Shown: positions 7,101-20,339 of the stretch, one piece after another | Numbering within the stretch: position 1 is the stretch's first letter | How the letters are laid out: each line of letters opens with the position of its first letter | Virus record (IMG/VR): IMGVR_UViG_3300043410_000848 | Span: 1-25,978 of that record | Reading direction: 5' to 3' (one strand) | DNA from: a virus | Length of the DNA: 25,978 bases | Position numbers and translations under genes: made by a program | The notes under the pieces: generated by a model | Databases searched by the model: none | Told to the model about the DNA's origin: nothing | The model's input: only the letters and a program-made list of their open reading frames with translations

Positions 7101-9117
7101 TTGAGAGCACTGAGTTGACTGGTTTATTTGAATATATTCCATCTGCAACATAGTCTTTTGTTCCATATAAAGTAATGCTTGTTGCTCTTTCATCTACCGT
7201 TGGCATAATGTAATTTCTTGACATTGTGACAAAGTTATTGTCTTCGTCAAAGAACATTGCTGTCTGTGTTGATTGTGCCAGGTCATTCAAAATTTCTGCT
7301 ACAGTTTTGTCTGGTGCTACATAAAAGTATGGGATAATATCTTCTGACTCATTTGCATTTCGGTAAAACTTGTAATTTGAAAAACCAATATTATCTAGCA
7401 TTGTGGCAATTGCAAAACTTAATGATGCATTTTTAAGTAGAATTGATGGTGCAGTCACAGATTCAAAATAGAACATCATATCCCTTAATTTTATCGAAGC
7501 CATTCTATCGGAGGTTCCAATTTCTGGGAATCCATCAACATACATTGTTTTAATTGGAATATAATAGTCGCTCAGGGTTGGGTACTGTCTGTCATCAATA
7601 ATGTGTTCGTAGAATTTAAACTGCAAATTTCTTGATGATATATTTGAGATAAGACTTCCAGTAACTATACCAGAAGAAACGGCTAGGTCATTATATTCAT
7701 TAAATGATTGGTCATAGTCAAATATAGAAATGTTTCCTGTTGCCGCCAAAAGTTGTCCCACAGGCACACCAGTATTACCAATATCTGATGCAACCTTATC
7801 TATTGAAAATGATTTAGTTTTTTCTGACATATCTGCAACAAGTCTAGGCGACATTTCGATAAGGTCAAAACTTGAGCCATACTGAGACATTGAGTCAACC
7901 ACAATTCTAATTCCCTTGATGAATTGAAATTCTCTATATGTTGGTGTATAGATTGTAGATGCTGTTCCATAAAAATCTGGAGATGTTAGTGATGTAACAA
8001 GTGATGATTTAGTGGTTAGACCTTCTTCATTTAGATACCAGCCATATGTTGGCACAAATGAATTAGTTGTCCAGTTTGTTCCATTCCAAACATAAATTTT
8101 GCCAGATGTTGTATTTGTCTGGTCTGGTACTAGATATGCATCTCCAGTAGCACCAGAAATCGGAAGGGCATATTGAGATGCATACTCACCCAGCAATCTA
8201 AAGGTGGTTGGTGAATTTGTAATTCCATACGCTAATTCAACATAGCCATCGGAGCCGATGACCCTTTTCCCATTTGAGCGTACCTCGTTGATTGAGAATG
8301 TTTTAGCAGTGGTCCATGTTCCAGAAGTGTTCAGGTACTGAATTTTCCATCTTGCTGGAGTTTTCTGATTAACAAGATTGCCAGTATTTGCTGGGTCTTC
8401 GTAAAATGGGTCATTATAGGAAGTGTTATTAGATTTTTTATATGGACCATTATCTACATCGCCAACCCCTGTTTGCATTTTTACAACAAGTCTATTTGCT
8501 GGTACTGGGTCTGTATATACTACAAATGGTGCTGTGTCGTCAATAAAGTAGTCTCCTGTTCCAGAGCCAACATCTACTGTCGCAATTCCTCTTTGTGTGC
8601 CACCGAGGGTCTCACTGTTATCAATTCTGTATGAATTCCAATATTTAAATTTGTCATCTTTTGATGCAAGATAAAATCTTGGCTGTTCATGCATATTTGA
8701 ATTAGCATAATTTAAATAGTTGTCTCCAAAATAACGAATCTTATTGATACCAGAACGTGGTCTAAATCTAGAAACTGTGTCGGTTAGTGAATACAGCATT
8801 TTGTCTGTTTCATCAATAGTTGCATCAATGATTGGGTCTTGGGTGTCTTGAAAAATACCCACAGTTAAATTTATGTTTGAGTCAGTTGCACCGTAGTAAT
8901 ATTTGGTTGCTGATGCGGCAGTTTCTGGTGACCAGGTTGCCTTAATTACTCCAAAGTTAGCCTCTGTTGGGCTAAGTTCTGCTGGTCTATATCTGTAGTT
9001 TCCCATTTCAGAAATGTTATCTGAAAAGTTCATATTCCATTCTGCAAGAATTATAGACTGTAGATTTACTGATGAAGATTGCTCAATGTAGTTTTGAAGA
9101 TTAGTATTCTGATACAT
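4198..9117 (-). CDS. Large tail-tip hub protein with lectin-like and inserted beta domains
   Basis: The protein has 1639 residues, the second largest here, and its ATG at 9117 overlaps the upstream stop (TAATG). The final 70 residues (VSIFANPMIQLGDIVTIDYN, then RFVVYHISYERSSNGPSMKL) match the end of baseplate-hub proteins: a G-D-x-V-x-I strand and a last beta-barrel strand with M-x-L-x-L. The central part includes AKHGRGQFGT near residue 865, a signature I associate with large minor tail proteins of actinobacterial phages. Around residues 930-1045 lies a nested pair of repeats: an outer GIKAGMRVYA...EVVSSTQIKLT unit split by an inner HGF domain (H965). Residues about 1100-1330 look like a concanavalin-type beta sandwich (RKFYLYINGKLVGTAQDDD). 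It probably forms the hub ring and carries host-binding lobes. No protease or lysozyme motif was seen. Confidence 0.7.
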   Translation of the reverse strand: MYQNTNLQNYIEQSSSVNLQSIILAEWNMNFSDNISEMGNYRYRPAELSPTEANFGVIKATWSPETAASATKYYYGATDSNINLTVGIFQDTQDPIIDATIDETDKMLYSLTDTVSRFRPRSGINKIRYFGDNYLNYANSNMHEQPRFYLASKDDKFKYWNSYRIDNSETLGGTQRGIATVDVGSGTGDYFIDDTAPFVVYTDPVPANRLVVKMQTGVGDVDNGPYKKSNNTSYNDPFYEDPANTGNLVNQKTPARWKIQYLNTSGTWTTAKTFSINEVRSNGKRVIGSDGYVELAYGITNSPTTFRLLGEYASQYALPISGATGDAYLVPDQTNTTSGKIYVWNGTNWTTNSFVPTYGWYLNEEGLTTKSSLVTSLTSPDFYGTASTIYTPTYREFQFIKGIRIVVDSMSQYGSSFDLIEMSPRLVADMSEKTKSFSIDKVASDIGNTGVPVGQLLAATGNISIFDYDQSFNEYNDLAVSSGIVTGSLISNISSRNLQFKFYEHIIDDRQYPTLSDYYIPIKTMYVDGFPEIGTSDRMASIKLRDMMFYFESVTAPSILLKNASLSFAIATMLDNIGFSNYKFYRNANESEDIIPYFYVAPDKTVAEILNDLAQSTQTAMFFDEDNNFVTMSRNYIMPTVDERATSITLYGTKDYVADGIYSNKPVNSVLSNIISLDAEDSIIYNGGKVVYSNKYIQKSYSSVQEAGMLNKGQSYKNKPVLLWEVAGTESLRPVNDEVTNQSAYSLSALVLNSNLSSTLPNVVSGVIVDNVMDVGQSIYWLTRYKGYLYANAEIIKYDAVEHTISGIGDVWIESVSDYQKYFAKLPFNGKIFPTGRIRIYAEPNFDGSGNVVDGEVAKHGRGQFGTTVTTHTVLEDSNDWLSLTDNHRAFSMQSKWIYRNDHQYSDSYYTLQNATATINTNTVTVTDTTGIKAGMRVYAKATKTVGTQTPTYSSGVVTLTVSSHGFKPGNQIKVESVVPSTYNAIYTIKSVTTNTFTFDVSYSNPGAITTAGKVSKLFDNRGNSAIQSGTEVKEVVSSTQIKLTKNVTAALSGVDLKVTDNIVEPLDYMSYHATDDSIGFVVEKPYVSGKTIDFFDSSSYAESTSSKQVDQTKPNGAIKSSALVVQGPADFSTITDATDAVSYVYKDVTSECPSAYSFGTRMRIVGKPLSSKESTAEAKQMPVGGEILATFDKGYTISGTGGGIAINISDPTSTTNPVIDKNTGYYFEITALTNDSIVDNSGKNDTATTMPNVFFYKVLKGANTKNAIPVMLWFGNAPILVDDGMFVGMSKAANTKNPTVYDLMVETEELAQTTTGTYSRKFYLYINGKLVGTAQDDDAIPVTENNRGIALFVRGKGLCMFENVFVIGDRSAKPNAPTTKKIMLDDDKLDNENYRKYMVNPSVLQTYLKEVGPSHQPKYTLYYEEFGTIMRECAYFNVRYDKAYPALYSKISPTFNDSQGYVVSNFRSNPYSAEFLIFNATDFALNLDESTGNYLRIQGVTFTQQSSHDLTVEEYFQKNSDLNNYSNYTDLNNKYIAIQNSRNTYGRKDFTISGTYIQNYDTANKIMQWMVDKNMHKKKSVGVSIFANPMIQLGDIVTIDYNIDNVLQNSTARFVVYHISYERSSNGPSMKLYLSEVV

Positions 9118-10271
9118 TATACCTCTTCCAATGTTACGCTAACATTCCAAAAATCAAAGTTGCTGCCACCACGCTTAACAACATTGTAATCAAAACTGGA
9201 GATGAACATTTCCATTACGTGACCATATTGTGATAGTTGCGAGTATTCATTTATAGAAAATTTATTGTGATTGTCATAGGCAATAAAAACCCAAAATGAA
9301 CCAGTGTGGTTTTGATACCACTCAAGAAGTTCTGTTCCACCTGCACCGCCATCAACCGTATACTGTGTTCCAGCAACTGTGGTTCCAGAAATATTATCTA
9401 CTCTTGACTGTGGTGAGGCAACGCCAGACGAGTCAAAATTAGGACTATTTGAAAATGAACGTGATGGCAACATATCCCATGAAGTTGAAAGGGTAAGTTT
9501 ATCTGCAACATGGTATGAACGCATACGACCATTAATCATGCGTTCACGTTTTTCAATACGTTCTGGTTTAAATGACATGTCTTTTCTATTGTGGTCTGAC
9601 AATATGATAAAGTCATTTCCATTGGATAGTTCGCCAACCTCAAAGCCTTGTGGAACATAGATATATTCTGGTTCAACATATGCTGTTGCTGCTGAACCAA
9701 TCTCAAATTGTGCAGAGTCGAAATATGCGTAAGTTCCAGCAACAGTAACTGTCGATGATGAATATGTATATAGTCTTACAGTATCTGCGTTTATTGGTGC
9801 AGTTGCAGTAACAGATACCCTCGTCCAGGATGATGTATTTACTCCTGTACTTGTTGTTCCAGTTGATGTAGACAAAACTGTAGTTCCTTGTCTCCATTCA
9901 ATATATGATATAAATTGTTTTGAGGAATTTCCATCTTTCACATACATTGAAAATGTATATGTTTGTCCTGGTGTTACAGTTATTACACTTCCGCTGTGAA
10001 TGATACCTAGTTTACTGCTACCACTCACATATGTAACTTTTAAAGTATTTGTTGCAGAATGTGCAATCGTTTCTGGAGTTACCTCCAAAGTCCCAACTCC
10101 ACCACCATAACTTGCATAGTTCCAGTTTGTTGTAGCATTAAAACTTGAATTTGGAATTAGGTTAATGCTAGTAATTGGATTAATTACTGTAGTAGGTGCT
10201 GAGTCAGACCAAAGCATCGCTTGTGGTCTCTTATACTTTTTTCTTCCTGCTAAATATGTGGCACTAGCCAT
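9117..10271 (-). CDS. Distal-tail-like minor tail protein with an inserted carbohydrate-binding-like domain
   Basis: The protein has 384 residues and follows the tape measure gene, the usual place of the distal tail (Dit) protein that caps the tube. The ATG at 10271 overlaps the tape measure stop by eight bases and has AGGAG ten bases upstream. Residues 1-35 (GRKKYKRPQAMLWSDSA) and about 205-384 (RIEKRERMINGRMRSYHVAD through WYQNHTGSFWVFIAYDN to WNVSVTLEEV) form the likely tail body. Between them, residues about 36-200 read as a CBM4/9-like jelly roll: it opens with NLIPNSSFNATTNWNYASY, has the middle strands TPGQTYTFSMYVKDG, SWTRVSVTATAP and VRLYTYSS, and closes with AYFDSAQFEIGSAATAYVEP. 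Such insertions make evolved Dit proteins able to bind cell-wall sugars in some Gram-positive phages. Dit identity rests on position; the inserted domain is clearer. Confidence 0.65.
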   Translation of the reverse strand: MASATYLAGRKKYKRPQAMLWSDSAPTTVINPITSINLIPNSSFNATTNWNYASYGGGVGTLEVTPETIAHSATNTLKVTYVSGSSKLGIIHSGSVITVTPGQTYTFSMYVKDGNSSKQFISYIEWRQGTTVLSTSTGTTSTGVNTSSWTRVSVTATAPINADTVRLYTYSSSTVTVAGTYAYFDSAQFEIGSAATAYVEPEYIYVPQGFEVGELSNGNDFIILSDHNRKDMSFKPERIEKRERMINGRMRSYHVADKLTLSTSWDMLPSRSFSNSPNFDSSGVASPQSRVDNISGTTVAGTQYTVDGGAGGTELLEWYQNHTGSFWVFIAYDNHNKFSINEYSQLSQYGHVMEMFISSFDYNVVKRGGSNFDFWNVSVTLEEV

Positions 10272-13200
10272 TTACTACACTGCTCCTAATTCGTTGTGAA
10301 TCAATTCTCTTGATTTCTCTCATTACTGCATCTGCAATACCGCTGGCATCTGAAGAGTTTGCATTTACTGTAACACTATAATTATACACGCAATCTCCCA
10401 TTGATGCTCCACTATTCATAGCCTTTAGATTGTCAACTCCGATGGCATCTACTGCAGATTTCTTTACAACAAATTCTCCTGGGGTGAGCATAGCAGGAAC
10501 GGTATCGGTTCCAAAGATACCACCGCCAAGTTCAAATCTTTGAGGAACTACACCACCCATAGCAAATCTATAGGTTGGTCTAAGATGTGTGGGATACGCT
10601 GTATTAGCACTGATTCCAGTACCAGTAGTCACTGTCCATGAATCTGATACTGCATCAGTAATTGCATCGGCTGCCTTGAATGCAGTACCAGTAGAGGCTG
10701 TGGTTGCTCCTGGAGATAGCCATCCAGGATTTTTCTTACCATAAAGAATTTTATAATTTGCACCATCTTTGCTAACCCCATAGACAAATGCTCCAGCAGG
10801 AACAATATAGTAAGAACCTTTGGATAATTTTTCTTCGTTCCATCCACCAGCATTACTTCCCTTTGCACTTGGAAGTTTAATTGGGTTATTTACTGCACCA
10901 TCTGCTGAAACTACTTGCTCCCAATATCCAACGTTTGCCATAGCATCATATGTCCATTTAACTTCTGATGTTGATGGTAGGTTTTTCTTTGCTGCCGCTT
11001 CTGTTGCAAATGTAGTCTGATTATTTACATTGTTTGACTTTGTTTGCAAAACCCATGTACCTGGAGTTTTTTCATCCTGAACATATCCGTCTTTGTTTGC
11101 ATTTTCATCTCTCTTGACCATAACGAACTTTTTCTTTTTAAAGTCCCAAGCACTAGTCATTCCTGCCATTGACATCCATCCACCAGCAGAGCCATTTTGA
11201 ATTTGTGCATATTGGTTTGCCACAGTATTGCCCTTTGAGTCTAAACCAACCTTTTGAGTATTTCCAAGTGCAGTTTTACCTGGTTGAACAACATCTTCTT
11301 GCCCACCCTGCTTACCTGGCTTTACTGGATTGTATGGTTTAAGTAATGACAATGCCTTTCCATCTTTAAGCATTTGAGCAATGTGCTTTGCTGATTTAAG
11401 TGCATTCTGCTCAATATCATGTTGGTGCTGGGCTTCTTTGAGTTTGAAGCCAGCAATTTTTTCAGCATTATCAGCAATAGACTTTTCTAGAGTTTCACGA
11501 TGCTCAACATGTCCATTGATGATAACCTCAATGTCTGCAAGTTCTTGCTTTCTGGCATTTTCCAAACTTGTTCTTGCATCATCCATTGCTTGCTTTTGGT
11601 CATTTTGTTTTGCAGTTAAGGCTGCTCTTGCAGCAGCAGCAATGTCACCCTTAGAAATTGCATCTGCTAATGACAAAGTATCTTGTTGCTGTTGGTTGTT
11701 TCGTTCCTGAATCTTTCCAATTTCATCAAGAGCCTTTATTCGCTTATCATACTTGTCATTAATTTCTTTTTCTTTAATGCCAATTACTTCAAGACCTGCT
11801 TGATAAAGTTCATTGTCTTTTGCTAGTCGTTCTGCTGGTGTCATTAGAACATACTTAAGACCAATTTCACTGGCTTCTCTAATTTCTTTAAGTTTCTTTA
11901 GAAGTTCTCCAGCATCTTTTTTCAACTTTCCAGTCTTTTTATCAATGATTCTGTTTTGTTCTTCTTCAGTACCATTCATAAATGCATTGATTTCTTCTGT
12001 TGCTGCTCCAGCATTTTTCATCATTACTGCGATACCGCTCATAGTGCTAATGGCTTTAGTACCATACTTCATGATAGCCTTGTATGAATCATTCCAACCG
12101 ACTGTTAGTTTTTGTTGCCAAAGATTTGCTTCTCTAAGCATCTTTACATATGGGTCAAGAACTGATGGCTCTGGTGTCTTTACTTCCTTTTGCTTCTGAG
12201 CACCAGGTCCAGTAGTATTGTCAACGCCCTGGGTCTGTACAGTTCTATCTGCCTGATATGATGCAAAGTCTGCGAATGTTGATTTTGGTCCACCAACCTC
12301 TTGTTGCCATAATCTAAATGACTTCATCATTGCTGGATTGCCATACATTTCCATAATTTGTCTTAACTCTGTTGTATAAACAATCTTATTTGCATCATTA
12401 TATTTATTAAATCTCTTTACATCTTTCTTAATTGCATCTGCAACATCTTTTCCAAGTTTTCCTGCCTCAAGTGCTAGAGTAATCTTGTTGCCACTTAGTT
12501 TTTTAAGTGAGTCTATTTTCTTTTTAGTATCTACTAACTTATCTGCATTCTTAACTGAGAAATCAATAATTGCTTTTTGTGTTACTGTATCTCCAGCAAA
12601 TGGACCTGTTGTTTTTTGAGCAATTTCCAATGCATCCAAAGCCTCTTTTGCCTGTTCTGGATTTTTTAGAGACATGTCGATTAGGAATTTCTTTCCTTCT
12701 TCAGCACCCATATTTTGTGTAATTCCTATTGCACGGTTAGCCTCTGTGCCACCAAGATTTGTTAGCAATGTGTCAAGTTGTGAAGAGCCTTCGGCATCTT
12801 GACCAAATAGATTTTGTGCCTGTGTCACTTGTGTCAAACCAATTTGCTTGCTGGCAACTGCTTGTGCAAGATTCATCTTTTGAATATCAGTTTGACCATA
12901 GAACTTATTCTTAATCAAATCTTGTGCAATTGCTGCATCACCTTCTTGACCAGTACCCTTATAATTTTCTACAACTGCATTAATGGCAGTATCTTTTGCA
13001 GTTGCAATTACTCCACTATCCATTCCTGCTAAGGTACTTTGTGCAGTAATTCTATCTTGTTTGTTTTGCTCCAAAATTGCTTGTCTGTCTATTAGATATT
13101 GGTTTTCTAGTCTTGTAGCCTCTGTTATATCTTTTGCAGCCATTGCAGCAGCAATTCTCTTTTGATAATCTACTTCAAGTGAGTCAACCATTTGTTGTTG

Positions 13201-16200
13201 ACTTTCAAGCATTGACTGATAACTAGCAGCAACAGCACCACCTGCTTCTGCAACCTTACCCCAGATATCCCATGTTCCTGCTGCCTGATTTACTTTTTCA
13301 GATGCAGCATCCATGCTTGTTGTAAACAAGTTTAATGATTCTTTTGAAATTCTCATTCTTGTTTCTAGTGGATTTCTCTTTAGGTCTGCTCCATCTGGAC
13401 CAAAAACATCGGTTAGTTTTCCAGCAACGTTAATTCCAAAGTTGGCATTCTTTAATGATTTTCCTAGATTTGCAGCAATACTTCTTGCCTGTGCTGGTGT
13501 CATTACTCCTGCACCGATGGCAGTTGATAGTTGCTGTGTAATTTGGTCTTCAGCCATTGACAGGTCACCATTTTTGATTGCTGTTCCAACATTTTTTACA
13601 AGTTCTTTTCCAGCATCGGTTTTCATGTATGATTCGCCAAATGTTGTTTTTCCTGGAACTACGTTGAAGAACTGCCCTGCACTTGCAGCACGTTGCTTAT
13701 CCATAACTTCTGTTCCAGTAGCCTTTTTAGCAAATTCAGCAAATTGACCAATTGCCTTATTTCCAGCACCAAGAGCCATTGTGGTCTTGTATGCTTCATC
13801 ACGCATTTTTTGAAGAGCCTCATTGATTTGGTTATAAATTACAAAACCTGCTGCCAATGCTCCAGCAACAAGACCTGCAGGACCAGGAATCATGGACATT
13901 GCGGTAGTAGCAGCAGATAGTGGACCCATAACAGCCTTGGCTGCATCTCCAACTACACCAGGAACCTGAGTTGCTAGACCAACAGCAGTGGTAGCCCCCA
14001 TCATTCTTCCTACTACCTTGCCAGTACCCTCAGTTGCAGTAAACATCTTTTTAAGGAATCCGCCCTTGCCAGTTCCTGGCTCTCCCTTGCCACCGTTTGC
14101 ATCCCATTCTTTAATTTGTGCATTTTCCATATTGGACATTTTTTTGGTTCTAGCACTTTGCTGTGCCTGTTCTGCCTTTGAGTGTTGCTTGCCAGCAAGT
14201 TTTTCTTCACGATATAGGTCTGACTCTCTCTTAAGTTGAGCATATTCCTCATTATTAGCCTCAAGATGTGCTCTTGTTCTTTCAAGTCTGGCAATTCTTA
14301 ACTTTTCATCAGCATCTTTTTCAGCCTTAATTTTGTCTACAACATCTTTGTTTACGACTTTGCCTTTTCTATTAGTCATAGTCTTGTTATCTGCATTAAG
14401 AACATTTGCTAGTGGTGTGGCAATGGCTTCTGCGGCATCCTTAAGTTTATCTACCGCTTTTGCAAATAGTGATGCTGGCTTGCTCTCCTCAACAACTTCT
14501 TTTGGTTTTGGAACACCAGGAATACCCTTTGAATATCCAGGAACTCCAGAAGTTCCCTTATTATATCCTGGAACATTTCCAGCAATCATGTTGGCAATTA
14601 AGCCACGGTGTTTTTCAGCCTTGTCTGCAGGAATTACAGCCTCTCCTGGGGTAAGCATAGCAGGAACCACGTCTCCAGCACCCTTTGGACCAGGGACTGA
14701 GAATACTCCACCAGCAAGTTTGAGTGGGTTGTGTGTAGGAATACCAAGTAGGCTAATAGCACCACGAGTCTTATCCATGTCATCGTAGAACTCTTCAATG
14801 TCATACCATTGCTGATAAGCCTTGGTAATTTCATACTTCATTTGCTCAGGCTTACGATAATCTTTATCTTTTCTAGCAATAATCTTTACACCAGCAAGAT
14901 TTACACCAAGTTTTGCAAGTGTTTCTCTTGTGTGTGCATCATAGGATTCTGGTCTAGCGGTCATAAGAATAATTTTGTTACCACGTGCTTGTGCTGCCTC
15001 TAATGCTCTAATACCTGCTGGAATTGGCTGAGGATTCTTTGCAACTTCCTTATACCAGTCTTTGCGTTGGTCCTTTGGAAGTTTTTCGTTTGCTGCTTGG
15101 TGACCAGGCATAAATGCAGATAGGTTTAGTAGGGTATCGTCAATATCAAAAATTGATGCTTTTGGTTTTCCAGATTTTAGTTTGCCAACATTGTCAGTTC
15201 CTTCGGCAAATTTTTGTGCATTTTTGAATAGTTCAAATCCACCTGCACCAACTTTATATCCATGCTTAGGAGCAAACTTATTTTTGTCAAATACATCAAA
15301 GTCAGCGATTGCTGACCATCTTGGCTCTGTTTCTTGATAAGAGACTGTTCCTGTATATCTTTCCCCAAATGTTCCTGGTGGCAACGAAGCACCCTTAATT
15401 GATACTGGTGGATTTGAGTAGTCACCACCTTTTAGATATTCTTCAATTGCTCTTTCTTGTTCTGTTCTTGAAGATGTTCCTCGTTTTGCTGTTGCACGAA
15501 CTTCTCCAACTTTAATTTTGCTTCCAGCAACACGGATTTCTCGTCCAGTACTAAAGTAGTCTCCTCGTTCCATACCTGCACGAATTTGTTCATCTGCTGA
15601 CATTCCCTGATTTCTCTTAAATCTCATGTCGCCAACAAGTCCTGCACGTCTCATTAGTCCTCTTGCAAGTTCTCCAGCAGGTCCAGACATAGCAGCGAAT
15701 CTTTCAAGAATTGCTCTTGTAGCCCTTGAAACATTTGAGTCTTTTACAATTGGAGATGCAGCAGAAAGTTGACCAATCTGGTCTTCAATTTGCTGAACAA
15801 TTGGAGATACTCCAGAAGAGAATCTATTTCCGTTATCATCAACAGATGCTTCTGCTGTTGAGTTCATCTTTCCTCTAATTGCATTCCATGCTGCAAGATA
15901 TAATGGTGCTGGAATTCCAGTAGATGAACCTCTCATGTACTGATTCATCCATGCTGGAATATCTGCTGTTAGATTTCCTAGAACCTGGAAATCTTGTAGT
16001 TTTTGAGGCGTTAGTCCAGTTCTCTTCTGTACCTGAGAAGCAATGTTTGGATTAAACTTATCTAACTCTTCTTCTAGGTGTGCTCTTTCTGTCTGTGACT
16101 TGAGCATTGGCATCATTGCAAGAATTTCTGGCGGAACTAATTTTGCCCAGTCTGTTGGTGGAACTTTTGAAGTTCCCAAACCATATTTTTTAGGTGTAAC

Positions 16201-19200
16201 TGCTGAATGCATTTGGTGATATTTTGTCCAGTCAACACCTAGACCAGCACCAAGTCTTCTAACCATGTCTGCGTATGCCTGTGTCTCCTCTGGAGTCAGG
16301 TCTGTCATTCCAGCAATTGTTGCATCAAGTTTAGGGATAACTCTTCTAATTTCTGCCTTCATCTCAGCATCGTACTGTTCTGGTGTCATGCTCTTTGCAA
16401 TTTCTGCTGTTGCTTCTGCAAAGAATCTCTTAGCACCACCTTTTACACCAAGAAGGTTAATGATGGCTTGTTCTTCCATAGAGTTAATCTTGCTACCAAG
16501 TGCTCTCTTGCCAGATGCCCTGCCAAATACACCAGCAGTTCCCACATCGGCAAGAACGTCTCCGCCAAGATTTCCGACACCAAGGTCTTTGTCTCCACGA
16601 AGAAGTGATGCCACCAATTGCTTAAAGTATTGGTCTTTAGTAAACGTTGTTGGAATTTCTGCAATTCTTGGGTCAACTGCTGATTCAAGAACCAAGAATC
16701 TACGAAGTCCGTCTGGGTCCGTTGGGTCCATCATTACACGAATTGTTTGTTTTGGAGCAATCAAGCCATGTGCCTCACGAGCAATTGTGGTTCCACGAAC
16801 TTCAGCCAGTGCTGATGTTAAGTCCATTTGTGGCTTAACGAACACCCTAGTGCCATCTGGTTTTTGGTAAATTCCTCCCACACTAAATGCTGGGAATGAG
16901 TGACCAGTTGTTGGTGAAATCTGTGTTCCAAAATCTGTTGGAGGGACGTTGGCATATGGACCAGCAAGCACTTCATCGCTAATCTCTTTTAACTGTAATC
17001 CAGTTCTGGCTAGACCCTCTGTTTGCTTTTGTGTAAGTGGTCCATATACTGACTGACGCATACCTGCACCAGTAGTACCACTTTCAAATCCTGGAAGATT
17101 TCCAGCAACCATACCTGCAATTACTGGTGCATACTTCTGTGCATGTTTTGCAGGAATAACTGCTTCACCTGGTGATAGTAGTGCTGGAACAATGTCTCCT
17201 GCCCCCTTTGGACCAGGAACATATGAAACACCTTGTGCATATTTCTTTGGTTTTGCATTTGGATTACCAACTGGTACACCAGGAATTCCAGAATAAGCCT
17301 GTTGAGCCTGAACAGCATTTCTATATGCTTCGGTAAGTTGGTTTACTGCTGCCGCTTCAGATGTAAATGTTTGACGTAATTTTGCGTGAGCCTGGTCAAG
17401 TGATGCAGCAATAGCAGCACCCTTTAACTGCTCAGTTGTCATATATGTTGTTTGTTCTCCAAGGATGTCGGATGGCTTAGTTGTCTTATTAATAAACGCT
17501 TTAATGTTTGTAAAGAGTTTCATAATGTTAGCAATACCGTTTGAAATCAAACCGAAGGTCATTAGTAGTAATGGACCAATACCTGCTACTGCTGTAACAA
17601 GAACTGTAATAAATTGTTTAGAGCCTTCACTAAGGTTATTGAATCCATCAAGAACTTTTCCAACAAACTCAACAATTGGGGTTACAGCCTTTAGGAATGC
17701 TTCACCAACTGGTGCAAGTTTTGCCTGAATGTCCTGAATTGACTTCTGGAACTTATACATCGGAGAGTCTGAAATCTTTTTCATTTCTCGTTCTGACAGG
17801 ACTGCGAGTTCTTCTGCAGTTTGCTTAGATAGTTCTGCAACAGTTTGTGCTTGGCTACCCTCTTTAATTACGTTCTGAAATAATGTTGAAATACGTGAGA
17901 ACTGGAACTTACCAAACATTTGCTCAATTGCACGAGCACGGTTTAGTGGGTCAAGTGTATCAAAAGCCTTTGCCATGTCAATAACGGTTGCTCTAACATT
18001 ACCTTTGTCTTTTTCTACAATACCTTTTACGTTAATTCCAAATCCAGCAAGGAAGTCTGATGCCTTTTTGGTTGGGTTAATCATAGATGCTAGACCAGAC
18101 TTGAGTGCGTTAGCACCTTCAGATGCATTAATTCCACCTTCCTTCATTGCTGTAAGGAAGAATGATAGGTCTTCTACGTTTCCACCAAGTTGCTTAATGA
18201 CAGGTGCAGCCTTTGGAATAGCAACTGTAAGGTCCTCAATTGATGTAACTGTCTGGTTTTCAACTGCATTCAAAAAGTCAATCTTTTTTGATAGGTCTTC
18301 TGTAGATGTTCCAAATGCATTTGTCAATGACATTGTTGTTTCAAGAGCCTGTTGTTGCTCTACGTTTCCAAGTACCGCTAACTTATTTGCTTCTGTGATT
18401 TGTGTTAAAAGGTCTGCACCAGTTTTACCCATTGCAGCAGCCTTGGCAGCCATATCCATTGTATCGCTAACTGCAACACCATACTTAGTAAATTCATTAG
18501 CAAGACCACGAACAGCCTTTGCCATTTTATTTGCTTCATCTGTTGTGGTGTTCATGTCACCATATACACGTTGGAATGAAATAGAAGCCTTTTCAATTTC
18601 CATATATGCCTTAGCGGCAGCAGAACCCATCATTGTAAGTGGTACAGTAAAACCAACCATCAACTGACGACCTGCCCACTGAGTGTTCTTACCAAAGTTT
18701 AGAAGTTGGGTAGAACCCTGTTTCATAAGTTGGTTAAACAACTGTTGGCGTTGAGCGGCAATCTGAGTTTTTGTACCCAAGTTATCCATGTCAAGTGCTA
18801 GTGGTTTAACAGCAATTGCCTTCATAGCACCATTGGCATCACGACCTAGTTTAATATATTGGGTCTGAAGTTCTTTTACTCTTTCACGAGCAACTTGGTT
18901 AATTGTTTCAAATTCTGACTTGAATAGTTTACCAAAAGATTTTGATGCTCCACCTGCATAGCGGAAGTACTCACCCATTGTGAGTTTGTTCTTTTCAAGT
19001 GCTGTTGTAAATCTCTCTGCACTTGTTTGAATTGTTTGAATATTTGCCTGGAATTTTCCAGTTGCGTTAACTGAATTTACCAGGTTTTGCTGCATGGCTC
19101 TTGCAGCAGCAGCGTTATCAGCACCTGCTTTTCGCATGGCTTGCTGAAAGGCTGATATTTGCTGTTGTAAAAGTTTTAGTTGCGCCAGGGCATCTGACGT

Positions 19201-19239
19201 ATCTATGTTTATATTTACATTGGTTTCAATATCAGCCAT
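10264..19239 (-). CDS. Tape measure protein with embedded kinase-like and HAD phosphatase-like domains
   Basis: The protein has 2991 residues and sets tail length. Residues 1-120 are alanine/glutamine-rich helix. About 180-560 is a TP901-type tape measure core (for example MKEGGINASEGANALKSGL). A membrane-like segment lies near 545-580 (FITVLVTAVAGIGPLLLMTF). VPGPKGAGD...PGEAVIP occurs at 674-696 and 1515-1537, and a related TDTVPAMLTPGEFVV near 2910-2925. Between the first two copies are a kinase-like segment (780-1000: K802, E813, D885, N890, D898) and a HAD domain (1358-1505: D1365, D1367, T1427, K1468, D1486, D1487). About 1590-1690 is a charged coiled coil, about 1715-1790 is Gly/Ala-rich and hydrophobic, and 1790-2700 is helical. 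About 2720-2870 is beta-rich. The start has only a weak GGTG ribosome site. The identity is very sure; the enzymatic insertions are motif-level calls. Confidence 0.92.
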   Translation of the reverse strand: MADIETNVNINIDTSDALAQLKLLQQQISAFQQAMRKAGADNAAAARAMQQNLVNSVNATGKFQANIQTIQTSAERFTTALEKNKLTMGEYFRYAGGASKSFGKLFKSEFETINQVARERVKELQTQYIKLGRDANGAMKAIAVKPLALDMDNLGTKTQIAAQRQQLFNQLMKQGSTQLLNFGKNTQWAGRQLMVGFTVPLTMMGSAAAKAYMEIEKASISFQRVYGDMNTTTDEANKMAKAVRGLANEFTKYGVAVSDTMDMAAKAAAMGKTGADLLTQITEANKLAVLGNVEQQQALETTMSLTNAFGTSTEDLSKKIDFLNAVENQTVTSIEDLTVAIPKAAPVIKQLGGNVEDLSFFLTAMKEGGINASEGANALKSGLASMINPTKKASDFLAGFGINVKGIVEKDKGNVRATVIDMAKAFDTLDPLNRARAIEQMFGKFQFSRISTLFQNVIKEGSQAQTVAELSKQTAEELAVLSEREMKKISDSPMYKFQKSIQDIQAKLAPVGEAFLKAVTPIVEFVGKVLDGFNNLSEGSKQFITVLVTAVAGIGPLLLMTFGLISNGIANIMKLFTNIKAFINKTTKPSDILGEQTTYMTTEQLKGAAIAASLDQAHAKLRQTFTSEAAAVNQLTEAYRNAVQAQQAYSGIPGVPVGNPNAKPKKYAQGVSYVPGPKGAGDIVPALLSPGEAVIPAKHAQKYAPVIAGMVAGNLPGFESGTTGAGMRQSVYGPLTQKQTEGLARTGLQLKEISDEVLAGPYANVPPTDFGTQISPTTGHSFPAFSVGGIYQKPDGTRVFVKPQMDLTSALAEVRGTTIAREAHGLIAPKQTIRVMMDPTDPDGLRRFLVLESAVDPRIAEIPTTFTKDQYFKQLVASLLRGDKDLGVGNLGGDVLADVGTAGVFGRASGKRALGSKINSMEEQAIINLLGVKGGAKRFFAEATAEIAKSMTPEQYDAEMKAEIRRVIPKLDATIAGMTDLTPEETQAYADMVRRLGAGLGVDWTKYHQMHSAVTPKKYGLGTSKVPPTDWAKLVPPEILAMMPMLKSQTERAHLEEELDKFNPNIASQVQKRTGLTPQKLQDFQVLGNLTADIPAWMNQYMRGSSTGIPAPLYLAAWNAIRGKMNSTAEASVDDNGNRFSSGVSPIVQQIEDQIGQLSAASPIVKDSNVSRATRAILERFAAMSGPAGELARGLMRRAGLVGDMRFKRNQGMSADEQIRAGMERGDYFSTGREIRVAGSKIKVGEVRATAKRGTSSRTEQERAIEEYLKGGDYSNPPVSIKGASLPPGTFGERYTGTVSYQETEPRWSAIADFDVFDKNKFAPKHGYKVGAGGFELFKNAQKFAEGTDNVGKLKSGKPKASIFDIDDTLLNLSAFMPGHQAANEKLPKDQRKDWYKEVAKNPQPIPAGIRALEAAQARGNKIILMTARPESYDAHTRETLAKLGVNLAGVKIIARKDKDYRKPEQMKYEITKAYQQWYDIEEFYDDMDKTRGAISLLGIPTHNPLKLAGGVFSVPGPKGAGDVVPAMLTPGEAVIPADKAEKHRGLIANMIAGNVPGYNKGTSGVPGYSKGIPGVPKPKEVVEESKPASLFAKAVDKLKDAAEAIATPLANVLNADNKTMTNRKGKVVNKDVVDKIKAEKDADEKLRIARLERTRAHLEANNEEYAQLKRESDLYREEKLAGKQHSKAEQAQQSARTKKMSNMENAQIKEWDANGGKGEPGTGKGGFLKKMFTATEGTGKVVGRMMGATTAVGLATQVPGVVGDAAKAVMGPLSAATTAMSMIPGPAGLVAGALAAGFVIYNQINEALQKMRDEAYKTTMALGAGNKAIGQFAEFAKKATGTEVMDKQRAASAGQFFNVVPGKTTFGESYMKTDAGKELVKNVGTAIKNGDLSMAEDQITQQLSTAIGAGVMTPAQARSIAANLGKSLKNANFGINVAGKLTDVFGPDGADLKRNPLETRMRISKESLNLFTTSMDAASEKVNQAAGTWDIWGKVAEAGGAVAASYQSMLESQQQMVDSLEVDYQKRIAAAMAAKDITEATRLENQYLIDRQAILEQNKQDRITAQSTLAGMDSGVIATAKDTAINAVVENYKGTGQEGDAAIAQDLIKNKFYGQTDIQKMNLAQAVASKQIGLTQVTQAQNLFGQDAEGSSQLDTLLTNLGGTEANRAIGITQNMGAEEGKKFLIDMSLKNPEQAKEALDALEIAQKTTGPFAGDTVTQKAIIDFSVKNADKLVDTKKKIDSLKKLSGNKITLALEAGKLGKDVADAIKKDVKRFNKYNDANKIVYTTELRQIMEMYGNPAMMKSFRLWQQEVGGPKSTFADFASYQADRTVQTQGVDNTTGPGAQKQKEVKTPEPSVLDPYVKMLREANLWQQKLTVGWNDSYKAIMKYGTKAISTMSGIAVMMKNAGAATEEINAFMNGTEEEQNRIIDKKTGKLKKDAGELLKKLKEIREASEIGLKYVLMTPAERLAKDNELYQAGLEVIGIKEKEINDKYDKRIKALDEIGKIQERNNQQQQDTLSLADAISKGDIAAAARAALTAKQNDQKQAMDDARTSLENARKQELADIEVIINGHVEHRETLEKSIADNAEKIAGFKLKEAQHQHDIEQNALKSAKHIAQMLKDGKALSLLKPYNPVKPGKQGGQEDVVQPGKTALGNTQKVGLDSKGNTVANQYAQIQNGSAGGWMSMAGMTSAWDFKKKKFVMVKRDENANKDGYVQDEKTPGTWVLQTKSNNVNNQTTFATEAAAKKNLPSTSEVKWTYDAMANVGYWEQVVSADGAVNNPIKLPSAKGSNAGGWNEEKLSKGSYYIVPAGAFVYGVSKDGANYKILYGKKNPGWLSPGATTASTGTAFKAADAITDAVSDSWTVTTGTGISANTAYPTHLRPTYRFAMGGVVPQRFELGGGIFGTDTVPAMLTPGEFVVKKSAVDAIGVDNLKAMNSGASMGDCVYNYSVTVNANSSDASGIADAVMREIKRIDSQRIRSSVVNG
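10462..10530 (-). repeat. Third, diverged copy of the tape measure PGE motif
   Basis: This encodes residues 2904-2926 and includes GTDTVPAMLTPGEFVVKK. It keeps the D-x-V-P-A-x-L-x-P-G-E core of the other two copies but lacks VPGPKGAGD and has E-F-V-V for E-A-V-I. It is close to the form I associate with the C-terminus of many tape measure proteins, so it may be the ancestral copy. Confidence 0.75.
14629..14697 (-). repeat. Second copy of the VPGPKGAGD...PGEAVIP protein repeat
   Basis: Residues 1515-1537 of the tape measure protein repeat residues 674-696 with few changes. The similarity continues downstream as A-x-K-x-x-x-x-I-A-x-M-x-A-G-N-x-P-G followed by a G-T-(S/T)-G stretch. This copy lies directly after the HAD domain and is followed by a proline/glycine linker with repeated G-V-P-G-Y-(N/S)-K-G units. 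Confidence 0.85.
14725..15168 (-). other. HAD-superfamily phosphatase domain inside the tape measure gene
   Basis: Residues 1358-1505 show the four HAD motifs in order. Motif I is IFDIDDTLLN, with D1365 as the expected nucleophile and D1367 as acid/base. Motif II is IILMTARPE (T1427). Motif III is the lysine in PEQMKYEI (K1468). Motif IV is EFYDDMDKT (D1486, D1487, metal binding). Spacing and the K-x-E-I plus F/Y-D-D arrangement resemble the phosphatase half of T4 polynucleotide kinase. The substrate is unknown; the fold call is firm. Confidence 0.8.
16240..16902 (-). other. Protein-kinase-like (HipA/PI3K-type) segment inside the tape measure gene
   Basis: Residues about 780-1000 carry landmarks in kinase order. 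GGIYQKPDGTR with VFVKP suggests strands 1-3 with K802. ALAEVRGTTIAREAHGL suggests helix C with E813 (E822 is an alternative). RRFLVLESAV suggests the hinge. D885-x4-N890 in GDKDLGVGN suggests the catalytic loop, and LADVGTAG with D898 stands in the DFG place. Only eight residues separate N890 from D898, shorter than in ordinary kinases, so activity and even the fold need structural support. Confidence 0.5.
17152..17220 (-). repeat. First copy of the VPGPKGAGD...PGEAVIP protein repeat
   Basis: Residues 674-696 of the tape measure protein lie just after the core and membrane-like segment and mark the left edge, in protein order, of the cargo block. Nearly the same sequence recurs at residues 1515-1537. 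Residues up to about 722 (IAGMVAGNLPGFESGTTG) also align with the second copy. Confidence 0.85.
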
Positions 19240-19257: not shown

Positions 19258-19584
19258 TTAGCCGTTAATTAGACCACCCATTAGTGATGCCTCACTAAGT
19301 TTGATACCAGATGCCTCTTCGACAATCTTGTATACGGTTGGAAGGTCTAGAAGTTCCTCTAGTGCCTTCAGGTCTGTGGCTAGTTCTGGAGCATACTGCT
19401 TCAGGGCAATCTGGACACATTCCATGAGAAGAGTCATTGACTTCTCGTTGTTGTCTGCTACTTCTGCAATGCCCTCAAATTTTGTCATGAATGGGCGAAG
19501 AAGTGAGATTTTAAGTGGACGAACAGCAATCTTCTGACCGTCTAGTAGTTCTACAGTTTTTGTCTCATTGATAGTTGTAGACAT
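19258..19584 (-). CDS. Short tail assembly chaperone (G-like)
   Basis: The protein has 108 residues and is clearly a paralogue of the first 100 residues of the longer chaperone encoded just upstream. Shared positions include V-E-L-x-D-G, V-x-P-L-K-I-x-x-L-R-x-F-M, E-C-x-x-I-A-x-K-Q-Y-x-P, D-L-P-T-x-Y-K-I and G-I-K. It ends shortly after this domain and has no T-like extension. Chaperones of this kind coat the tape measure protein before the tube polymerises; this gene ends 18 bases before the tape measure start, the classical position. The ATG at 19584 has a strong AAGGAGG site and lies just behind an extended -10 promoter. I see no in-frame route to a longer product: the A6 run at its end lies beyond the start of the stop codon. 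It may supply the abundant short form (inference). Confidence 0.75.
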   Translation of the reverse strand: MSTTINETKTVELLDGQKIAVRPLKISLLRPFMTKFEGIAEVADNNEKSMTLLMECVQIALKQYAPELATDLKALEELLDLPTVYKIVEEASGIKLSEASLMGGLING

Positions 19585-19631: not shown

Positions 19632-20339
19632 CTATGAGAGGTTTTCGTAGTCTAGCCCCATTCCAATACCGAAGCCGAACTGCTGTGCTTTCTGACCTTG
19701 CAATGATAGAATATCATTTGGGTCACCATTACCAATTCCACTTACCTTCGCAGCAACTCTAGCCTTCATGGCTTCCCATGGGTCTTCTTCTTGTTTTCCT
19801 GCTTGTTCATCTAGGTCAACACCCTGCATTGCAGCCAAGAACTTTTTCTCATTATAGTCAAGTTCTCTTCTTGATTCTAAAATAGCCATTAGTTCTGCCA
19901 TACATAAACTGCTCTCTAGTTCATCATAGTTCTTCCAAATTCCCAAAAGAAATACCTCTGATTCTAGTTTTACTAGGTCAAGTGCCTCCCAACTACCGCT
20001 ACTTTTTGATGTTGCTTTGTTAGAAACTGGTTCATTATTAGTTACAGCATTTCTATTAATCTTAATTCCAGCACAAACATCCAAAATTTTATAAATAGTT
20101 GGTAGGTCAACAGAATCTTCAAGGTCTGCTACTGTTCTGATTGCTGGATAGTATTGCTTCATTGCTATTCTTGCACATTCAGAAAGTACCGCCACAGATT
20201 CTTCATCAGTTTTTGCAGACTGAATTGTATTAAATACTTCCATAAACTGTCTTAGGTACTTAATCTTTAGTGGGCTAACTTCAATAATAGTTCCGTCTAC
20301 TAGTTCGACTTCTTCTATATCATATATTTTTGTAGGCAT
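19632..20339 (-). CDS. Long tail assembly chaperone (GT-like)
   Basis: The protein has 235 residues. Residues 1-100 are the chaperone domain shared with the 108-residue paralogue. A polar linker follows at about 101-116 (NEPVSNKATSKSSG). Residues about 117-235 are an extension containing LESEVFLLGIWKNYDELESS, LDYNEKKFLAAMQGVDLDEQ, DPWEAMKARVAAK and GDPNDILSLQGQKAQQFGFG. In lambda-type phages a similar long form (GT) is usually made by a programmed frameshift from the short gene; here it is one uninterrupted frame. No Shine-Dalgarno precedes the ATG at 20339. A TGGTATACT element ends six bases before the ATG, predicting a leaderless mRNA. A run of five A residues at 20007-20003, in the linker, could allow a -1 slip to an immediate stop; this is speculative. 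Confidence 0.8.
   Translation of the reverse strand: MPTKIYDIEEVELVDGTIIEVSPLKIKYLRQFMEVFNTIQSAKTDEESVAVLSECARIAMKQYYPAIRTVADLEDSVDLPTIYKILDVCAGIKINRNAVTNNEPVSNKATSKSSGSWEALDLVKLESEVFLLGIWKNYDELESSLCMAELMAILESRRELDYNEKKFLAAMQGVDLDEQAGKQEEDPWEAMKARVAAKVSGIGNGDPNDILSLQGQKAQQFGFGIGMGLDYENLS

Follow-up and report, generated by a model that had tools for sequence, protein, structure and literature searches.

Identity of the carrier protein

The window analyzed here, an entire IMG/VR virus record consisting of a linear piece of 25,978 bp, encodes a tape measure protein (TMP) inside which a complete HAD phosphatase domain sits beside a kinase-like domain. This combination suggests a tail ruler that doubles as a delivery vehicle, from which, we infer, enzymes pass into the bacterium. 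Listed in the direction of translation, with window coordinates and strand, the features of this protein are:

10264..19239 (-), ORF of the TMP, carrier of the enzyme domains; unbroken frame of 2991 codons, matched by TIGR01760 and PHROG TMP families
17260..19239 (-), conserved TMP core, residues 1-660
17512..17622 (-), hydrophobic segment, residues 540-576, a possible membrane segment (hydropathy scan)
17074..17247 (-), repeat copy 1 (GPKGAGDIVPALLSPGEAVIP), residues 665-722, at the start of the variable region; profile matches in nearly all relatives
16201..16992 (-), kinase-like domain, residues 750-1013 (start approximate), with K802, E813, D885, N890 and D898-x-G900; from alignment, model and fold matches
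15340..16101 (-), conserved stretch lying between the kinase-like domain and the HAD domain, residues 1047-1300; profiles mid1 and mid2, matched only in some relatives
14725..15168 (-), HAD phosphatase domain, residues 1358-1505, with D1365, D1367, T1427, R1429, K1468, D1486 and D1487; from Pfam, PHROG, model, fold search and alignment
14551..14724 (-), repeat copy 2 (GPKGAGDVVPAMLTPGEAVIP), residues 1506-1563, at the end of the cargo; repeat comparison and profile
13834..13896 (-), hydrophobic segment, residues 1782-1802 (hydropathy scan)
10390..10533 (-), repeat copy 3, shorter (GTDTVPAMLTPGEFVV), residues 2903-2950; repeat comparison

The head and tail genes that were scanned lie on the minus strand throughout, and the 2991-aa ORF is flanked on either side by tail genes. 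It matches TIGR01760 (1.1e-33; 116.7 bits against a cut-off of 28.8), the Pfam family PhageMin_Tail (9.7e-25) and PHROG TMP families (E down to 1.3e-99). Judged by sequence, the ORF outside the HAD domain is a TMP, and from this identity a location in the virion would follow for the domains that it carries.

The conserved core is common to relatives of the TMP encoded at 420 IMG/VR places, and residues 55-660 are also common to the TMPs of Streptomyces and Gordonia phages, the nearest ones in cultured phages. A short-peptide-pattern scan of GTDB genomes, which can miss distant relatives, found no prophage relative of the TMP N-terminus. A WhiB gene is present in 10 of 17 related contigs; such genes are typical of Actinobacteria and their phages. 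Together with the Streptomyces and Gordonia affinity of the core, these relatives make an actinobacterial host likely for the window virus.

A complete HAD phosphatase domain

The original prediction had placed a HAD domain at residues 1358-1505, with D1365, D1367, T1427, K1468 and D1486/D1487 as its catalytic residues, and the translation has each of them at these positions, in a segment that contains FDIDDTL, MTARP, K1468 and FYDD. In a Pfam search, the segment matches Acid_phosphat_B (PF03767) at 1.2e-14, with 54.9 bits against a curated cut-off of 27. HAD_PNKP is matched at 1.3e-7, with 32.2 bits for the domain alone (curated cut-off 27.6) and 23.8 bits in the whole ORF. PHROG 415, annotated as ‘polynucleotide kinase’, gives 4.9e-17, and the sequence matches in the PDB are e(P4) class C acid phosphatases and bacterial Pnkp1. 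With such profile scores, the HAD assignment is far above chance.

The structure was modeled within residues 1015-1514, and strand and helix numbers refer to the model. Its HAD part (pLDDT about 88) has a Rossmann-like core, present both in the model and in its PDB fold matches. Motif I (D1365, D1367) ends the first core strand (346-351) and motif II (T1427) the second (408-416), K1468 lies within helix 450-461, between the motif II strand and the acidic-pair strand, and the acidic pair D1486/D1487 follows directly after strand 466-471. The anticipated clustering of D1365/D1367 with K1468 and D1486 is borne out by this topology and by the fold match, rather than by measured distances. The best PDB fold match is the 3′-phosphatase domain of T4 Pnkp (5uj0; E 1.7e-6, target TM 0.76-0.77), and the next are class C acid phosphatases, a plant vegetative storage protein and the C-terminal domain of Nir2.

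Pfam and PHROG profiles, the model and the fold search thus agree on a complete HAD domain with all four motifs, and its place inside the TMP is confirmed. By motifs and fold it is a HAD phosphatase, with activity predicted. Going by what is established for the family, D1365 would form the aspartyl-phosphate through which phosphate is removed, and D1367 would serve as acid/base; T1427, R1429 and K1468 would hold the phosphate, and D1486/D1487 would bind Mg2+.

Relationship to T4 Pnkp and class C acid phosphatases

We aligned the TMP HAD copies with T4 PseT and three free-standing phage HADs. Equivalents of the T4 Pnkp (PseT; PDB 5uj0 / 1ltq) residues D165, D167, S211 (as Thr), R213, K258, D277 and D278 are kept in the TMP HADs, and the R-x4-D-x-R-K stretch is kept in all copies (R or K last) except the divergent L046. 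In contrast, Arg176 of T4 Pnkp has no counterpart, Asp254 is Pro in the TMP copies (L082 included), and the DxDGT motif of T4 Pnkp corresponds to DxDDT. We take Arg176 and Asp254 to be essential for the T4 3′-phosphatase. The P-loop kinase half of T4 Pnkp is absent from the protein bearing the TMP HAD, and the window domain, unlike the T4 phosphatase, is embedded in a TMP.

The best Pfam family of the window HAD is that of the class C (HAD IIIB) acid phosphatases and e(P4) 5′-nucleotidase (PF03767, TIGR01533), which also account for several PDB sequence and fold matches, although the domain scores far under the curated cut-offs of class C NCBIfam equivalogs such as TIGR01533. Class C acid phosphatases are free-standing lipoproteins or secreted enzymes. 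Among cultured phages, the best sequence matches (24-31% identity) are free-standing HADs annotated as ‘polynucleotide kinase’ (PHROG 415; for example in Gordonia phage Phinally and Mycobacterium phage Phabba). These are separate genes, and the three that were aligned retain the Asp254 equivalent, whereas the TMP HADs do not.

The domain had been likened to the 3′-phosphatase half of T4 polynucleotide kinase, a comparison that holds for the overall fold, the closest one found, and for the HAD core residues. It does not extend to Arg176 and Asp254, and class C phosphatases match equally well by sequence, so a nucleic-acid 3′ end as substrate is not established. Sequence and model together give partial support to the T4 Pnkp reading: the domain is closest in fold to the Pnkp phosphatase, yet lacks a tested feature of the 3′-end-specific group.

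The same evidence bears on whether the domain could be a true Pnkp-type 3′-phosphatase that enters with the genome and repairs 3′-phosphate ends, either on incoming DNA or on host RNAs, for example tRNAs cut by a defense nuclease. Such an enzyme would fit the T4 Pnkp fold match, the PHROG 415 and HAD_PNKP matches and the R-x4-D-x-R-K stretch found in every copy but that of L046. We nevertheless consider it unlikely, given the absent equivalents of Arg176 and of Asp254, the Asp that three free-standing phage HADs retain, the missing P-loop kinase half and the equal sequence matches to e(P4)-type acid phosphatases. As to the substrate, our best guess, a tentative one, is that the phosphate belongs to the end of a nucleic acid or to a nucleotide. 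A phosphoprotein, possibly the product of the kinase-like domain, ranks behind these as an improbable candidate.

A kinase-like domain upstream of the HAD domain

The kinase-like domain was missed in the original prediction and matters as much as the HAD domain. Its K, E, D, N and DxG residues stand in kinase active-site order and are invariant in 38 aligned sequences, and its model (pLDDT 89.9, pTM 0.89) displays small-lobe strands, a Glu-bearing helix and a catalytic loop. Kinases or proteins of kinase fold, RioK1 and HipA included, make up the 50 PDB fold matches listed, but these matches are weak (best E 4e-3, TM at most 0.35). Stronger matches came from the viral library, to a mycobacteriophage ADP-ribosyltransferase (2.9e-5) and an HK97-type portal protein (3.2e-5), and this library also returned annotated phage PI3/4-kinase proteins (4.2e-5 and 4.9e-4). 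Sequence-based naming with Pfam, PDB profile, PI3_PI4_kinase and HipA_C searches gave no match.

Of an initial set of 80 relatives, most have the domain (56 ORF rows, a count to which the window contributes and in which one relative appears as two ORFs), and a scan found 390 relatives of it in IMG/VR TMPs. In the best 80 of these 390, it always lies in a long ORF, mostly alongside the TMP repeat. It was found neither in cultured phages nor, by a short-peptide-pattern scan that can miss distant relatives, in GTDB genomes. In the TMP of L060 (4557 aa), the domain occupies residues 2836-3100, ~2,000 residues further along and near the far end instead of after the first repeat, a relocation that marks it as a movable module.

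Recurrence and selection

The HAD-TMP fusion recurs in 18 other viral contigs, one of which ends inside the HAD domain, and the catalytic pattern is kept in 16 of 16 full-length distinct HAD copies, the window’s included. dN/dS is 0.08-0.27 among HAD copies (mostly 0.08-0.25) and 0.11-0.27 for the kinase-like domain; comparisons of HAD copies with the divergent L046 give 0.34-0.57. Values with dS > 1 are rough. On the TMP-core tree, HAD presence changes at least five times, so the HAD module has been gained or lost repeatedly on a core that persists.

An assembly chimera or chance ORF is ruled out by the same fusion in 18 other contigs and by purifying selection, and a decayed enzyme by the invariant motifs. 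TMP length sets tail length, and inserted sequence is therefore tolerated, which would allow the HAD domain to be a catalytically idle spacer lengthening the ruler. This reading, or that of a fusion artefact, is highly improbable in view of the recurrent fusion, the invariant catalytic residues and the purifying selection, the artefact being already contradicted.

All HAD-bearing TMPs found carry the kinase-like domain too, always upstream, and purifying selection acts on both domains. The two might accordingly act together on one type of substrate, either a protein or a small molecule, which the one would phosphorylate and the other dephosphorylate so as to switch a host function early in infection. 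However, the kinase-like domain often occurs without the HAD domain in related TMPs, their association is partly due to shared ancestry, and kinase activity is a prediction with weak fold matches to known kinases; we regard such a pair as rather doubtful.

The repeat-bounded variable region

The variable region opens with the repeat GPKGAGDxVPAxLxPGEAVIP in nearly all relatives; in many the repeat recurs behind this region, and it is also found near the C-terminus. In the window, repeats with this PGE motif bracket the kinase-like domain, the intervening region and the HAD domain. The intervening residues 1047-1300 are modeled as a folded alpha/beta domain (pLDDT about 70-86), and the hydrophobic segments flank the cargo on both sides. 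Repeat copies 1 and 2 are 68% alike within one TMP and 60% between TMPs, and the repeat sequences hint, weakly, at cargo exchange by recombination between them.

Pfam searches of the relatives’ variable regions mostly gave no match. In the TMP of L016 (12155-14515), residues 637-696, after the HAD domain, weakly match a GNAT acetyltransferase (E 0.002, just under the Pfam cut-off), perhaps a third enzyme. The variable region of L030 has a RuvA_C match; this match and the GNAT one are weak or very short. Several TMPs, among them those of L006, L017, L042 and L046, have three or four repeat copies, and thus possibly more than one cargo region.

Proposed delivery from the virion

The enzymes known from TMPs mostly act by cutting the cell wall during entry. 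At that step neither a phosphatase nor a kinase-like domain would be of obvious use, and both point to work inside the cell. We think it probable, with moderate confidence, that this TMP is both tail ruler and carrier of an enzyme cargo delivered from the virion. The enzyme-carrier reading is backed by the fusion, the intact motifs, the fold, purifying selection, recurrence and modularity. The cargo between repeat copies 1 and 2 would be exchangeable and would comprise the kinase-like domain, the conserved middle region and a HAD domain of the type seen in Pnkp and class C acid phosphatases. In an infection, the TMP would presumably exit the tail before the DNA and cross the envelope, after which the cargo would fold in the cytoplasm.

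Folded globular domains, if the TMP is present in several copies, may not fit the tail tube, in which case the cargo would need unfolding or another placement. This steric problem speaks for enzymes that act, without delivery, in the cell making the virions, for instance after being cut from the TMP in tail assembly; some TMPs, such as lambda gpH, are processed in assembly. Sequence does not tell action in a newly infected cell from action in the virion-making cell. Against the latter, neither a cleavage site nor a protease was identified, a separate gene would be equally suitable, and an enzyme fused to the TMP is bound to the particle at low copy number, all of which leaves it improbable in our estimate.

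Carriage of enzymes on the TMP has two partial precedents. Tme, the tapemeasure-related effector of the Streptomyces davawensis contractile injection system (PMC11126660), is likewise a TMP-related protein with an enzyme domain acting as effector, but there the domain is a C-terminal endonuclease and the carrier belongs to a bacterial injection system, whereas the window has a phage TMP with a phosphatase. Polyvalent proteins combine several enzyme domains per polypeptide, minimal kinase domains and GNATs included, and are thought to enter with the DNA (PMC5512222). They share the multi-enzyme polypeptide with the window, where the carrier is a TMP; the words ‘tape’ and ‘phosphatase’ are absent from the main text of that paper.

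The HAD domain in a TMP had been put forward as lacking a known precedent, and our searches agree: three HAD queries found no HAD-TMP fusion among 50,697 records of cultured phages, and in the open-access literature (subscription papers and preprints lay outside this scope) neither a HAD phosphatase nor a kinase-like domain was found described as part of a TMP. The enzyme folds and the carrier are known; their combination was not found described. In many phages roughly the largest gene, the TMP is under-represented in domain databases (PMC10684548).

It is conceivable, if tentative, that the TMP serves as a cargo carrier throughout a large group of uncultured actinophages, with an exchangeable PGE-bounded region holding several enzymes (kinase-like, HAD and possibly, in one relative, a GNAT) that enter the host as infection begins. 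If true, this would make the TMP an overlooked vehicle for delivering early effectors, and the present domains and their mutants offer specific means of testing whether, and how far, TMPs enter the cytoplasm.

Genes next to the TMP

Upstream of the TMP, the proteins encoded at 19258-19584 and 19632-20339 of the window (both on the minus strand) each match PHROG 10504, as if the gene in the tail-chaperone position had been duplicated. The protein encoded after the TMP (9117-10271, minus strand) has a CBM_4_9 carbohydrate-binding domain, perhaps with a role in host recognition.
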